Positions 3,069-24,107 of a stretch of 64,000 bases of DNA are shown here, piece by piece. The stretch lies in contig JAGREE010000013.1 in the NCBI GenBank assembly GCA_020446675.1, forward strand, positions 109,304 through 173,303, given 5' to 3'. Origin of the DNA: Alphaproteobacteria bacterium (GTDB lineage Bacteria; Pseudomonadota; Alphaproteobacteria; Sphingomonadales; Emcibacteraceae). The notes under the pieces are model-generated. The model worked only from the letters and a program-made list of their open reading frames with translations, had not been told where the DNA came from and made no database searches. A program made the position numbers and the translations under genes. Positions within the stretch are counted from its first letter, which is position 1. Each line of letters begins with the position of its first letter.

Positions 3069-4303
3069 TTTTTATCGCCAGGGTTATTCAATTTCTTTAA
3101 AAGCTGCGCGCAGGTTTTATCGAGTAGAATGATAGCATTATCAATATCTTCTGCTTTGATATTAAGGGGGGGTAAAATCCTGACTGTATTCTCCCCGCCA
3201 CCAACCAGAAGCAATTTGTTCTTAAATGCCTGGACGACAAAATCCCTTGGTTCAATATGTAATTTTAAACCCATCATCAGGCCAAACCCTCTGACCATTT
3301 CTATTATTTCTGGGTATTTTTTCTTCAGCTTCATTAACTCAATACGCAACTTATCTGACATTTTTATGACATTCTCGAGAATATTTTCTTCCGCCAGTAC
3401 ATCCAGAACCGCATTCCCCATCGCCATCGCCATAGGATTACCACCGTATGTCGAGCCATGCGTGCCGACAGTCATATACTGTGCGACTTTTTCAGTGGCA
3501 AGACAGGCCCCCAATGGAAAGCCGCCGCCAATGCCTTTGGCAATTGGCATAATATCAGGGGTAACACCCGCATGTTCATGACAGAAAAGTTTTCCTGTCC
3601 GACCGACACCACATTGAATTTCATCATAAATAAGCAAAATGCCGTGTTTATCGGCCAGTTCACGGAGTATTTGCAGATTCTCGGTTGAAACCGGACGGAT
3701 ACCGCCTTCGCCCTGAATAGGCTCAATCATAATTGCTGCCGTTTCATCAGTAATATGATCTTCAACCTTTTTCATGTTGCGGTAAAATTTAATGACATCA
3801 AAGCCATCTACCTTTGGACCGAAGCCTTTGGTCAGTTTTTCTGAACCTCCTGCGGCAATTGTTGCCAGGGTGCGGCCATGAAAACTGCCCTCGAATGAAA
3901 TGATCCGGTAACGTTCTGGGTGACCGGTTGCGTTATGGTAGCGTCTTGCCATTTTAATGGCACATTCCACTGCTTCTGCGCCGGAATTTGTAAAAAACAT
4001 ACTGTCGGCAAAGGTCAGGTTACTCAGCCTTTTGGCCAGTTTTTCCTGTCCTGGTATTTCATAAATGTTTGATGTATGCCAAAGCTTCCCGGCCTGATCC
4101 GATAATGCTTTTACAAGTTTAGGATGACAATGACCCAAACAGTTAACGGCAATGCCACTGCCGAAATCAAGATATTCATTATCGTTTTTATCATAAAGGC
4201 GGGACCCTGAGCCACGGACGAAACCAACATCCATACGGGCATATGTTGGCAATATTGGCGATATAATGCTCTGATCCTGGTTGTTATCCTGACTGTTTTT
4301 CAT
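3065..4303 (-). CDS. argD: acetylornithine aminotransferase
   Basis: Class III PLP aminotransferase of 412 residues making N2-acetylornithine in arginine synthesis; it may also act on succinyldiaminopimelate as other ArgD proteins do. The phosphate-binding motif NSGAEAVE is near residue 105, SFHGRT near 145, IYDEIQCGVGRTG near 235, the PLP lysine in IAKGIGGGFPLGA near 260, and GSTYGGNP near 290. First gene of the argD-argF-hslO unit, overlapping argF by 4 bases. The N-terminal 20 residues are polar and poorly conserved, so the exact start is slightly uncertain. Confidence 0.95.
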   Translation of the reverse strand: MKNSQDNNQDQSIISPILPTYARMDVGFVRGSGSRLYDKNDNEYLDFGSGIAVNCLGHCHPKLVKALSDQAGKLWHTSNIYEIPGQEKLAKRLSNLTFADSMFFTNSGAEAVECAIKMARRYHNATGHPERYRIISFEGSFHGRTLATIAAGGSEKLTKGFGPKVDGFDVIKFYRNMKKVEDHITDETAAIMIEPIQGEGGIRPVSTENLQILRELADKHGILLIYDEIQCGVGRTGKLFCHEHAGVTPDIMPIAKGIGGGFPLGACLATEKVAQYMTVGTHGSTYGGNPMAMAMGNAVLDVLAEENILENVIKMSDKLRIELMKLKKKYPEIIEMVRGFGLMMGLKLHIEPRDFVVQAFKNKLLLVGGGENTVRILPPLNIKAEDIDNAIILLDKTCAQLLKKLNNPGDKK

Positions 4304-18992: not shown

Positions 18993-19601
18993 ATGAGTAG
19001 TAGCGCAATTAAAGGTGTGCCAACAGAAAATAACACAGAATTAAAATCTGGATCGGCATCGACAATAAATGAACAGAGTGGTCACTCGGCATCTGAGCAT
19101 TTTGATGAAATATCGGGTTCGATTAAGTGGTTTGATGACATCAAAGGATACGGGTTTATTGAAGCCGATGATGAGGAAAATCGCAAACAAGGTGATATTC
19201 TGGTTCATTTTTCCATCCTTAAAGAACATGAGCGTGGTTCGCTGCCAGAAGGGACAAAAGTAACCTGTCTTTCTGCAAATCGTCCAAAAGGACGGCAGGC
19301 GGTCAAAATATTGACTTTTGATCTGTCCACAGCCATTGAGAAAAAAGAAACTGAACCAAAATTCATTATTGAAGACAAAAATTATACGGATGATGATTTT
19401 GTCGATGTTGTTGTTAAATGGTTCAACAAAGTCCGCGGTTATGGCTTTGTTAACCGTGGTGATGGCGGGCAGGACATATTCGTCCATATGGAAGTTCTTA
19501 GGCATTATAATATTGATCAGTTGGTTCCCGGTCAGGCATTATCCGTTGTGATCGAAGATGGTGAACGTGGCTTAATGGTAAATGCCATTAAAAAAGATTA
19601 G
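18993..19601 (+). CDS. double cold-shock-domain protein
   Basis: 202 residues with two cold-shock domains, a layout typical of alphaproteobacterial CspD-like proteins. CSD1 (about residues 42-105) has GSIKWFDDIKGYGFIEADD and ILVHFSIL. CSD2 (about 132-200) has VVVKWFNKVRGYGFVNRGD and IFVHMEVL. Both keep the aromatic RNP1/RNP2 faces that stack on single-stranded nucleic acid. The N-terminal 40 residues are polar and low-complexity. GGGAAG lies nine bases before the ATG. The gene is followed by the DUF192 gene, as in many alphaproteobacteria. It probably acts as an RNA chaperone or antiterminator. Confidence 0.93.
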   Translation: MSSSAIKGVPTENNTELKSGSASTINEQSGHSASEHFDEISGSIKWFDDIKGYGFIEADDEENRKQGDILVHFSILKEHERGSLPEGTKVTCLSANRPKGRQAVKILTFDLSTAIEKKETEPKFIIEDKNYTDDDFVDVVVKWFNKVRGYGFVNRGDGGQDIFVHMEVLRHYNIDQLVPGQALSVVIEDGERGLMVNAIKKD

Positions 19602-20316: not shown

Positions 20317-20393
20317 CGGGGAGTGGCGCAGCCTGGTAGCGCACCTGTTTTGGGTACAGGGGGTCGCAAGTTCGAATCTTGTCTCCCCGACCA
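20317..20393 (+). tRNA. tRNA-Pro (anticodon UGG), CCA encoded
   Basis: 77 bases. Acceptor stem CGGGGAG pairs with CTCCCCG, followed by ACCA. The D-arm has GCGCAGCCTGGTAGCGC, the anticodon stem CCTGT/ACAGG encloses the loop TTTGGGT (anticodon at 20351-20353), and the T-arm holds GTTCGAATC. The C1-G72 pair is normal for bacterial tRNA-Pro. Confidence 0.97.
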
Positions 20394-20464
20394 TCTTAAA
20401 AAAACTCCATAAATCAGCCATAATGTCCGATATAATAAGGTCTTTTAGCCATGGGATTTTGTTA

Positions 20465-21073
20465 ATGGACTTTGGTATAAGCTTTAAAAAACGATATCTG
20501 TTGTTTTTGCTTCTCATCGTAATTGGTTTTTATTATTCCTGTGTCATATCGAGTGCCAGAGATATTACTCAAGGCAGAGTAAGCTGGGCAGAATCACAAA
20601 TGTCTGATCCAATTTCCAACAGTGAAATTTCAGATAAAAGGTTATCCCTTTTATTAAAAGTTCAGGATGAAAATTTTTTCACTCACGGTGGTACTGATTT
20701 TTTGTTGGGACGAATGACAACCATTTCGCAAAGTCTTGTAAAATATCTTTATTTTGAAAATTTTCAAAAAGGTATTCAGAAAATAAGGCAGTCTTTAATT
20801 GCACGTTTTGCCTTTGACCCACTTGTTTCAAAAGATAAGCAGTTAAATCTTTTTCTAAATCTTGTTTATATGGGTCAAGTTGACGGTAAAGAGGTGAGAG
20901 GGTTTAATCAGGCCGCGCATGTTTATTTTAATAAAGATCTTTCAGATATCAGTGATGAAGAATATTTAAGCCTGCTGGTCATGCTTTCCTCTCCAAATGG
21001 GTTAAATGTGAAAAATAAAAAAGAACTGAACCTGGCTGCTGTTGCTGATTTAAAGCAAAAGCTTTCTCTTTAG
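20465..21073 (+). CDS. GT51-like transglycosylase-domain protein with both catalytic Glu replaced
   Basis: About 202 residues: one N-terminal TM helix (LLFLLLIVIGFYYSCVI) then a periplasmic domain resembling the peptidoglycan glycosyltransferase fold GT51. Recognisable positions are QDENFFTHGGTD (for EDxxFxxHxG), TTISQSLVKYLYF (for STLTQQLVKNL), KIRQSLIARF (for KxxEaxxA), SKDKQLNLFLNLVYMG and RGFNQAAHVYF. The two glutamates essential in PBP1b (E233, E290) are Gln here (about Q67 and Q109), so it is probably not an active polymerase. The start at 20465 is preferred for a GGGA upstream; 20423 is the alternative. It ends with a 4-base convergent overlap with the glycosyltransferase gene. A structural or regulatory pseudoenzyme is likely. 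Confidence 0.75.
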   Translation: MDFGISFKKRYLLFLLLIVIGFYYSCVISSARDITQGRVSWAESQMSDPISNSEISDKRLSLLLKVQDENFFTHGGTDFLLGRMTTISQSLVKYLYFENFQKGIQKIRQSLIARFAFDPLVSKDKQLNLFLNLVYMGQVDGKEVRGFNQAAHVYFNKDLSDISDEEYLSLLVMLSSPNGLNVKNKKELNLAAVADLKQKLSL

Positions 21074-22218
21074 CCAAGGGCCTTTTTATACACTTCATAT
21101 TGCCTGGCCGCGACGTTATCCCATCTGAAGTCTTTGACTGTTTCGGCTATGTCATCGCGCGACTTTACCAGATTTTCCAATGACTTTACAGCGTTTGACA
21201 AGGCGTACTCTGAGCGCTCATCAAGCAGGAAACCATTTTGTTCATTAAGGACTTCGGAAACACCCCCAACATCACAGGCAATAACCGGTGTTCCGGTCGC
21301 AAGGCTTTCCAAGACCACATTCGGCATTCCTTCCATGGAAGACATAAGGATCGTTGCTTTTGCGCCGGCATAAAATTCGGCAAGCTTATTCTGGTCAACA
21401 TGTTTGATAAACTGAACACGTCCTTTTATCCCCAAATTTTCCGCCTGTTTTTTCAGGTTTTGGCGTTCTACACCATCACCGATAATGATCAGGCGTGTTT
21501 TGGAGAGGTCAAAGAAAGCATTCAAAGTTATATTATGGCCTTTTAAGGGGATAAGATTGCCGACACTTAAAAAATAATCCTCACGAAGGGGATTTGCCTC
21601 GACCGAAGTATTAAAAACGCTCGGGTCCACACCATTAATAATGACGGTGATTTTATTTTCATCGACGCCGTAATCAATCAGGGACTGTTTTAATGCATCA
21701 CTGACACAGATCACGTTGCTGGAATAATCAATGGCTTCCAGAATTTTCTGACGGGCTTTTTTATTGTCCATCCAGTAATTTACATCACTTCCGCGCGCGG
21801 TAAGGATCAGGGGTTTATTATGATTTTTGGCAAGCTTAAAAGCGGCGACACCATCCGGGTATAGATATTGTCCATCAACTAAGTCAAAGTCGTCTCCACC
21901 CGGATAAAGATCACCCAGAATGTTCTCTGCGGCATTTGCCATTGATGTGGCATTGTCAAAAAAACTCAACCCGGGAAGAGTGAAATATTTTGGATGGAAT
22001 ATGTCAATGTTCCCCTGAATTTCGTGAAAAGGCATTTGTTCGTATAGCCTGTATCTTTCACTCATGATCTCCATCATCGGAAAATGGGGGACAGGGGCAA
22101 TTACTTTTCGTCTGAAACCTTCGATGGCATCCATTGCGCACAGTCGGTTTTTAACAAAAATTCCGTGTCGCGGCTGCAATATATTCGGATACAGCGTTGT
22201 AAGGGTTAAAATTTCCAT
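21070..22218 (-). CDS. GT4 glycosyltransferase
   Basis: 382 residues, GT-B fold retaining glycosyltransferase of family 4. The N-terminal domain starts MEILTLTTLYPNILQPRHG. The C-terminal Rossmann domain has VGNLIPLKGHN, then IIGDGVERQNLKKQ and the nucleotide-sugar E-x7-E region in SSMEGMPNVVLESLATGTPVIACDVGG. I choose the ATG at 22216-22218; it lies 2 bases after the asnB stop, so the pair is one operon. Together with an amidotransferase it probably acts in surface polysaccharide synthesis; similar pairs occur in exosortase-linked exopolysaccharide clusters, but no exosortase is in the window. Confidence 0.9.
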   Translation of the reverse strand: MEILTLTTLYPNILQPRHGIFVKNRLCAMDAIEGFRRKVIAPVPHFPMMEIMSERYRLYEQMPFHEIQGNIDIFHPKYFTLPGLSFFDNATSMANAAENILGDLYPGGDDFDLVDGQYLYPDGVAAFKLAKNHNKPLILTARGSDVNYWMDNKKARQKILEAIDYSSNVICVSDALKQSLIDYGVDENKITVIINGVDPSVFNTSVEANPLREDYFLSVGNLIPLKGHNITLNAFFDLSKTRLIIIGDGVERQNLKKQAENLGIKGRVQFIKHVDQNKLAEFYAGAKATILMSSMEGMPNVVLESLATGTPVIACDVGGVSEVLNEQNGFLLDERSEYALSNAVKSLENLVKSRDDIAETVKDFRWDNVAARQYEVYKKALG

Positions 22219-22220
22219 AT

Positions 22221-24107
22221 TTATCCGTGTCTGGATAAAAATTGGTAAAACATCATCAACGTCCAAAGTGGTGCACTATAATCACGAATGCCTGATTGAT
22301 GATCTTTTATTAATCTCTCCAGATAAGCTTTTTCAAAATAACCGCTGTCCAGCATTTGTTCACTGAGAACGGTTTCTTTGATTTTTTCTTTTAATTCATT
22401 TCTAAACCAGTGCCCAAGCGGCACGCCAAAACCCATTTTTGGCCGGTAAAGAATATCATTAGGCAACTGACCTTCCAATGATTTCTTGAAAATATATTTT
22501 CCTTCATTGCCGTGCAGTTTGTAATCGGACGGAAGCGACGCGATCCAGCCAATCAGCTCATGATCCAAAAGCGGGACCCGCACCTCAAGTGAATAAGCCA
22601 TGGACGCCCGATCAACCTTAGTCAGGATGTCTCCGGGAAGATAAGTTTTTATATCCAGATACTGAATGAGCGATAAGGGGTCATCTGTCTCTGCCTGTTC
22701 GGCATGCCTATTGAAAACCTCAAGCGCGTTATAGTCCTGCAAATCACTTTTTAGAGATTTTGAAAAAAGCATTTGGCGCATTTCCGGCTTGAATATGGAT
22801 ACACCGTGGAAATAGCTTTCGACGCTGCTACGGGCAAGGCCCTGGAATGTTGTTTTTGCTCTGAATACCCGCGGTGCCCAGTCTGCTTTGGGGTAAACCG
22901 CGCCAAGGAAACCAAAAACCTGTCGTCTGAATGAAACAGGAAACATGCCGCGCATTTTTTCTTCAAACATATGGAGTTTATAACGCCTGTAGCCAGCAAG
23001 ATTTTCATCGCCGCCATCCCCCGAAAGGGCGACCGTTACCCTTTGACGGGCAAGCTCGCAAACACGGAAAGTGGGCAGGGCCGAACTGTCCGCATAGGGT
23101 TCGTCATAATAATCCATCAGTCCATCGACAAGCGAGTAATCATTGGGGTCAACTACTTTGGTCTGATGATTGGTTTTATATTGATCCGCGACTTTTTTTG
23201 CATAATCAGCTTCATCAAATTTTGCTTCAGCAAAGCCGATTGAACATGTATTTACGGCATCACGACTATTTCTGGCCATATTGGCAACAACCGCACCGGA
23301 ATCAACCCCGCCGGACAGAAAAGCGCCTAGAGGTACATCGGCCCGCATTCTTATTCTTACCGCTTCCTCAACCCGCCGGTCCAGCTCGCGGGTGGCATCT
23401 TCGAATGAACCGGAATAGGATGTATTAAAGTGGATGTTCCAATATTGGGTATTTTTTATTTTTCCGGATCCCAGATTGATCAGAAGTGTATGACCCGGTT
23501 CCAGTTTCATAACATTTTTATAAATGGTATGGGGTTCCGGTACATAACCCAGAGCGAAATATTCCTCAATGCTTTCCTGGCGAAGTGAATTGTTGAAATT
23601 TGGATGCAGCGCCAATGATTTGAGTTCCGAAGCAAAAACAAAGTTATTTTCTGCCAGCATTGCATAAAAAAGCGGTTTGATGCCCAAACGGTCACGGGCA
23701 ATAAAAACCTCATTTTTCTTTTTGTCATGAATTGCATAAGCAAACATGCCACGGATTCGCTCAACACTTTTTGGCCCCCATGCATGATAAGCCTGTAAAA
23801 TTACTTCTGTATCGCTGCTGGTTTGGAAGTGATAGCCCAGTGCCATTAATTCTTCGCGAAGTTCAGGAAAATTATAAATTTCACCATTATAAGTGATGCA
23901 GACACGGTCATCGGATGTCACCATTGGCTGGTGGCCCCCAGCAAGGTCAATAATTGAAAGACGGCGATGGCCAAAGGCAACCCCGCCCGAAAAATAATCA
24001 CCGGAGCCATCAGGGCCACGATGTTCAATTATATCGGTCATTTTTGTCAGCAAGTGTTTTGGGGGTGTTTCCCCGGATATGTTTATTATTCCTGCGATAC
24101 CGCACAT
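22221..24107 (-). CDS. asnB: asparagine synthase (glutamine-hydrolysing) / amidotransferase
   Basis: 628 residues. The class II glutaminase domain starts with the catalytic Cys2 (MCGIAGI), which also fixes the start codon, and has HRGPDG and YNGEIYNF. The synthase domain (from about residue 230) has the PP-loop LSGGVDSGAVVA and ALSGDGGDENLAGY. LPGDILTKVDRASMAYSLEVRVPLLD is the conserved late motif. Either it makes asparagine, or, given the linked glycosyltransferase, it modifies a surface-sugar acid as the amidotransferases of exopolysaccharide clusters are thought to do. The sequence alone does not decide. Confidence 0.93.
   Translation of the reverse strand: MCGIAGIINISGETPPKHLLTKMTDIIEHRGPDGSGDYFSGGVAFGHRRLSIIDLAGGHQPMVTSDDRVCITYNGEIYNFPELREELMALGYHFQTSSDTEVILQAYHAWGPKSVERIRGMFAYAIHDKKKNEVFIARDRLGIKPLFYAMLAENNFVFASELKSLALHPNFNNSLRQESIEEYFALGYVPEPHTIYKNVMKLEPGHTLLINLGSGKIKNTQYWNIHFNTSYSGSFEDATRELDRRVEEAVRIRMRADVPLGAFLSGGVDSGAVVANMARNSRDAVNTCSIGFAEAKFDEADYAKKVADQYKTNHQTKVVDPNDYSLVDGLMDYYDEPYADSSALPTFRVCELARQRVTVALSGDGGDENLAGYRRYKLHMFEEKMRGMFPVSFRRQVFGFLGAVYPKADWAPRVFRAKTTFQGLARSSVESYFHGVSIFKPEMRQMLFSKSLKSDLQDYNALEVFNRHAEQAETDDPLSLIQYLDIKTYLPGDILTKVDRASMAYSLEVRVPLLDHELIGWIASLPSDYKLHGNEGKYIFKKSLEGQLPNDILYRPKMGFGVPLGHWFRNELKEKIKETVLSEQMLDSGYFEKAYLERLIKDHQSGIRDYSAPLWTLMMFYQFLSRHG

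Follow-up and report, generated by a model that had tools for sequence, protein, structure and literature searches.

A GT51-like protein with glutamine at both catalytic glutamate positions and its flapless relatives, mostly in Alphaproteobacteria

In the GT51 domain of PBP1b, E233 is the general base (PMC8119973) and E290 has been termed catalytic (PMC7400108). The flap of these domains, described as the alpha4 helix loop in one study (PMC8119973), keeps the donor site apart from the acceptor site and has been linked to processive polymerisation (PMC6053601; PMC8119973). In the monofunctional SaMGT, D101 and Q136 touch the ligand at the lipid II pyrophosphate/acceptor pocket, and mutants D101N and Q136E are likewise without polymerase activity; the head subdomain of GT51 resembles lambda lysozyme (PMC6053601). 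We found no description of a GT51 pseudoenzyme or of a flapless family in the open-licence literature. An earlier note on the window (the whole 64,000-nucleotide stretch of DNA analysed here) had proposed that one of its genes encodes a GT51-like protein in which both catalytic glutamates are changed to glutamine, and had read the protein as a selected pseudoenzyme.

The window gene and its active-site positions

The GT51-like gene is an open reading frame on the forward strand at 20465..21073, in which ATG 20465 gives 202 aa; a longer frame from ATG 20423 (20423-21073, forward strand) is also intact and gives 216 aa. Judged by the starts of the relatives, ATG 20465, the start taken in the earlier note, appears to fit better than ATG 20423, although the residue numbers Q81 and Q123 used below follow the 216-aa form. 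GT51-like motifs in an intact gene were confirmed: the frame is open throughout and PF00912 (Transgly) was the sole Pfam match of the window protein, at 73.3 bits against a cut-off of 27. This significant match, along with matches to PF00912 by 13/13 rows of the family profile A1 described below, supports GT51 membership by descent. The NCBIfam matches were GT51 models and a few marginal others, every score being far under its cut-off; the MtgA equivalog TIGR02070 gave 29.5 bits and did not reach its cut-off of 182.65. The window protein scored 248.6 bits with profile A1, in which it is one of the rows.

A Kyte-Doolittle scan identified a single transmembrane segment at the N-terminus, preceded by positively charged residues (20498..20554, forward strand), corresponding to residues 12-30 of the 202-aa form, with a mean of 2.29 and a net charge of +2 ahead of the segment. 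The predicted topology is N-in, with the domain in the periplasm. The AlphaFold model, built from three sequences, had a pLDDT of 44 and was unusable. Two normal bifunctional class A PBPs are also encoded in the window genome.

The motif I region KVQDENFFTHGGTD (20657..20698) places Gln81 at the position of PBP1b E233, and motif III, KIRQSL (20780..20797), places Gln123 at that of E290, both by alignment and both on the forward strand. Between them on the same strand lie a junction without the canonical flap (20699..20716), located by counting the spacing from Q81 to motif II, and an aligned motif II remnant, TTISQSLVK, which replaces the canonical STxTQQxxK (20717..20743). Q81 is 18 residues from motif II, compared to 32-38 in canonical domains. 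Q81 and Q123 fell in the motif I and motif III Glu columns in a MAFFT alignment with ordinary class A PBPs, in an hhalign profile comparison, and in an alignment of the family profile with Aquifex PBP1a and E. coli PBP1b; the frame around QDENFF (Q81) and KIRQSL (Q123) is anchored by D82, F85, G90 and Q103. As controls, we used 45 GT51 domains from ordinary PBPs of the same class, collected from our own searches, and each of them has Glu at both the E233 and E290 positions (45/45), so the two Gln in the window protein are not a matter of chance. We rejected a misalignment with the catalytic Glu elsewhere, since the three alignments agree and E84, three residues on, is not conserved. The window protein retains none of the three features of active GT51 domains that we tested, namely the motif I Glu, the motif III Glu and the flap. 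What the earlier note had observed at the two glutamates is correct and understated, in that it missed a larger feature, the loss of the flap from the whole family.

A flapless family and its distribution

We found 26 full-length relatives, mostly in Alphaproteobacteria, making 27 members with the window protein. Of the 399 genomes of the order that were searched with the single sequence, 10 besides the window genome yielded a relative, and a single-sequence search also recovered a Methylosinus sporium locus with two family copies in tandem (L021, 5662-7236); these tandem copies have Q and R at the general base and an extra deletion after motif III. Profile A1, built from 13 sequences including the window protein (identity to the window protein 23-40%), gave 129-311 bits for family members and at most 83 bits for ordinary PBPs, the rows of A1 scoring high by construction and L033, L082, L083 and L094-L096 being members that are not rows. 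Counting the window genome, the family occurs in 11/399 genomes of the order; it occurs in 3/385 of the class and 4/349 of the phylum (own genome included), two of those four being outside the class. It was present in 4/61 genomes of the G267 genus and in 2/20 of the G071 genus. Only the window genome was positive in its own genus and family, and the searches made returned no close homologue of the window gene. The family is apparently scattered and undescribed, and its members are currently recorded as transglycosylase domain-containing protein or glycosyl transferase.

Named plasmid records of Azospirillum, Agrobacterium and Tistrella carry a family member; the Azospirillum one (L084) retains E233, and the gene is present in the laboratory strain Azospirillum brasilense Sp7. 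The copy in G655, a genome of the same class, has a translation identical to that on the Tistrella mobilis plasmid, which would put the window itself in Alphaproteobacteria. The Shinella oryzae plasmid (L093, around 4001-4225) holds a C-terminal fragment only, 35% of the query and perhaps a decayed copy. On a plasmid of Agrobacterium tumefaciens F2 that is typed conjugative, the family gene adjoins a divergent class D beta-lactamase gene (L085, 6037-7660). A match in Methylobacterium proved to be an ordinary PBP. We also rejected a phage origin, because the matches to phage records scored low (at most 57 bits) and seemed to be ordinary PBPs or contigs without annotation; an IMG/VR scan gave no match to the family. 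A link to defence was dropped after the PADLOC library gave no match. No gene neighbour that might point to a partner recurred beside the family gene across genera.

The patchy and partly plasmid-borne distribution, together with the beta-lactamase neighbour in A. tumefaciens F2, is what one might expect of an accessory decoy or immunity factor that protects lipid II or PBPs against an antibiotic or against the toxin of a competitor. That neighbour was seen only once, however, other resistance or conflict genes do not recur alongside and the defence library was without a match, which leaves this explanation very remote.

We counted residues over the 27 members, leaving out the Shinella fragment. 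At the E233 position these members, which are not 27 independent cases since 8/27 are close relatives from plasmids, have Glu in 18, Gln in four, Asp in two and Arg, Ala and Val in one each; at the E290 position they have Gln in 21 and Leu in six, and never Glu. The alignment of homologues suggested in the earlier note accordingly gave a divided answer on whether Gln is conserved. Homologues with Glu, which that note had said would count against its reading, were found at motif I only, and at motif III the Glu is gone throughout. The variable E233 position (Q, D, R, A or V wherever Glu is lost) indicates repeated loss instead of a fixed Gln. On a tree computed after removal of the two trait columns, whose deep branches are weak, at least five changes at this position are needed.

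The motif I residue is 18-20 residues from motif II in the family, compared to 32-38 in ordinary PBPs, and 12-20 residues of the flap are missing in every member. Most members keep the residues of motifs I and II that surround the lipid II pyrophosphate/acceptor pocket: in motif I, D and G in 27/27, the second D in 25/27 and H in 23/27, and in motif II, Q in 26/27 and K in 24/27. Every member has a single hydrophobic stretch close to its N-terminus. The window protein shares with the family the flap deletion, Q or L at E290, the single transmembrane segment and the lone domain.

These counts also bear on the main rival to a non-catalytic role, namely that members retaining E233 have an altered enzymatic activity. 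The family might still be enzymatic, either as a flapless, non-processive glycosyltransferase or by lysozyme-like glycan cleavage through the motif I Glu, in which case the members without that Glu would either rely on an acid close by (D82, or in the window protein E84) or be secondary pseudoenzymes. Glu in 18/27 members at motif I, D82 in 27/27 and the likeness of the GT51 head subdomain to lambda lysozyme (PMC6053601) speak for such an activity. Against it, the motif I Glu is missing from the window protein, no member has retained E290 or the flap, and the E84 position is Pro in nearly all relatives; moreover, the repeated loss of E233 from proteins that are otherwise retained suggests that catalysis is dispensable. 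We consider this explanation rather unlikely.

A C-terminal tail of the form C-x7-D-V-x4-C is present in 23/27 members, the exceptions being the window protein, L011, L083 and L095. Its spacing is fixed (for example in L084-L092) and none of the ordinary GT51 domains in our alignments showed it; the two cysteines may perhaps form a periplasmic disulfide. Such a disulfide could close a contact surface, and the inactive LytM-domain protein DipM, which acts as a regulator, offers a precedent (PMC10336132) for a dummy domain acting solely through protein-protein contacts with class A PBPs or their regulators, with no binding of lipid II. We judge this unlikely, as the pocket residues of motifs I and II are among the best-kept positions and the Cys tail is absent from the window protein.

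Selection and probable acquisition beside tRNA-Pro

Pairwise dN/dS among the relatives was 0.12-0.38 (Nei-Gojobori, own script), values that are rough, since a rule was used to choose some of the starts and dS was above 1 in some cases. The two Methylosinus paralogues, both without the motif I Glu (Q and R), gave 0.35. We rejected a pseudogene or sequencing artefact for the family in view of the 26 relatives and these ratios. The claim of a selected pseudoenzyme is supported at the level of the family, by the existence of relatives, a motif III that never has Glu, the deleted flap and a dN/dS well below 1 among the relatives.

The GT51-like gene is directly downstream of tRNA-Pro(TGG) (20317..20393, forward strand, ARAGORN), and its 3' end abuts a convergent glycosyltransferase gene on the reverse strand (21070-22266). 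The convergent neighbours at 21070-24107 comprise this glycosyltransferase and an amidotransferase of the XrtA/PEP-CTERM system (TIGR03108, 957.6 bits, above cut-off). Upstream of a DUF192-type gene and the tRNA-Pro, the gene at 18993-19601 encodes two cold-shock domains in one chain, in an order that is kept in the genus. We compared twelve same-genus loci, one of which (L106) is shortened by a contig end: the cold-shock gene, the DUF192-type gene and tRNA-Pro were found in 12/12 and the GT51-like gene in 0/12. In eight of these loci (L098-L103, L107, L108) the gap from the tRNA to the glycosyltransferase match is 16-95 bases, and in the window 680 bases, the GT51-like gene included, separate the tRNA-Pro from the convergent glycosyltransferase. 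No attachment-site repeat was seen by eye at the tRNA-Pro locus. The GC content of the gene is 0.342 and its GC3 is 0.286, compared to 0.335-0.478 in six nearby genes. Since the same-genus genomes keep the locus without the gene, it looks to have been acquired horizontally next to tRNA-Pro; a gain in the window lineage, we infer, is a simpler account than a loss from every other one.

An import of this kind might also be decaying, functionless in the window genome and heading for loss. The gene is missing from the other genomes of the genus, is AT-rich, lacks the Cys tail and sits on a long tree branch (1.19), and the Shinella copy is no more than a fragment. These points have to be set against an intact frame with the invariant and most of the near-invariant residues of the family, and against purifying selection on the relatives, and decay seems quite improbable.

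A putative non-catalytic role and comparison with known systems

That every member has lost the motif III acid and the flap, and a third of them the general base as well, speaks against processive polymerisation. Given the pocket residues that are retained, the predicted periplasmic site and the two normal PBPs, a non-catalytic role in binding lipid II or PBPs is the most likely one for the window protein, with a probability of about 0.5; the lipid II-binding or regulatory role raised in the earlier note would fit. The protein would be a membrane-anchored, periplasmic derivative of GT51 that has given up processive glycan polymerisation. It might bind lipid II or nascent strands, dock on class A PBPs or the SEDS/PBP machinery, or both, without transfer, and would thereby modulate or buffer cell-wall synthesis. 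It would have arrived horizontally beside tRNA-Pro in a genome that already had two normal class A PBPs. The kept residues of motifs I and II may be structural instead of ligand-binding and, as the SaMGT D101N and Q136E mutants are inactive (PMC6053601), are equally expected of an enzyme; E233 is kept in most relatives, so some of these may be enzymes. We put forward more tentatively, at somewhat less than even odds, a reading of the family as horizontally spread and mostly alphaproteobacterial, in which the polymerase domain no longer catalyses and instead senses lipid II or modulates PBPs, and the general base has been lost repeatedly and independently.

The database names of the family are contradicted by the active-site residues of the window member. 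If the non-catalytic role is true, a peptidoglycan polymerase domain has been turned into a regulator or substrate binder in bacteria, a parallel in cell-wall synthesis to the inactive LytM factors. The coexistence of members with and without the general base provides a natural experiment on the GT51 flap and each glutamate.

Compared to MtgA and SaMGT, the monofunctional GT51 proteins, the window protein is of similar size and has the same single N-terminal transmembrane helix and lone GT51 domain; the motif I and II residues D, H, G, D, Q and K are largely kept in the family, and SaMGT chains are matched by the family profile. It differs from them in having Gln at both catalytic Glu positions and no flap, and in its TIGR02070 score. 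The GT domains of the class A PBPs (E. coli PBP1b, Aquifex PBP1a) are the best matches among solved structures and share the motif order, but the window protein has no transpeptidase domain, E233 and E290 are replaced and its flap is 12-20 residues short. DipM, a LytM factor, resembles the family in that an inactive enzyme domain is kept by selection, which sets the precedent for a regulatory role (PMC10336132). The DipM fold is unrelated, however, and DipM regulates hydrolases, whereas the GT51-like family is derived from a synthase and its regulatory role is putative.
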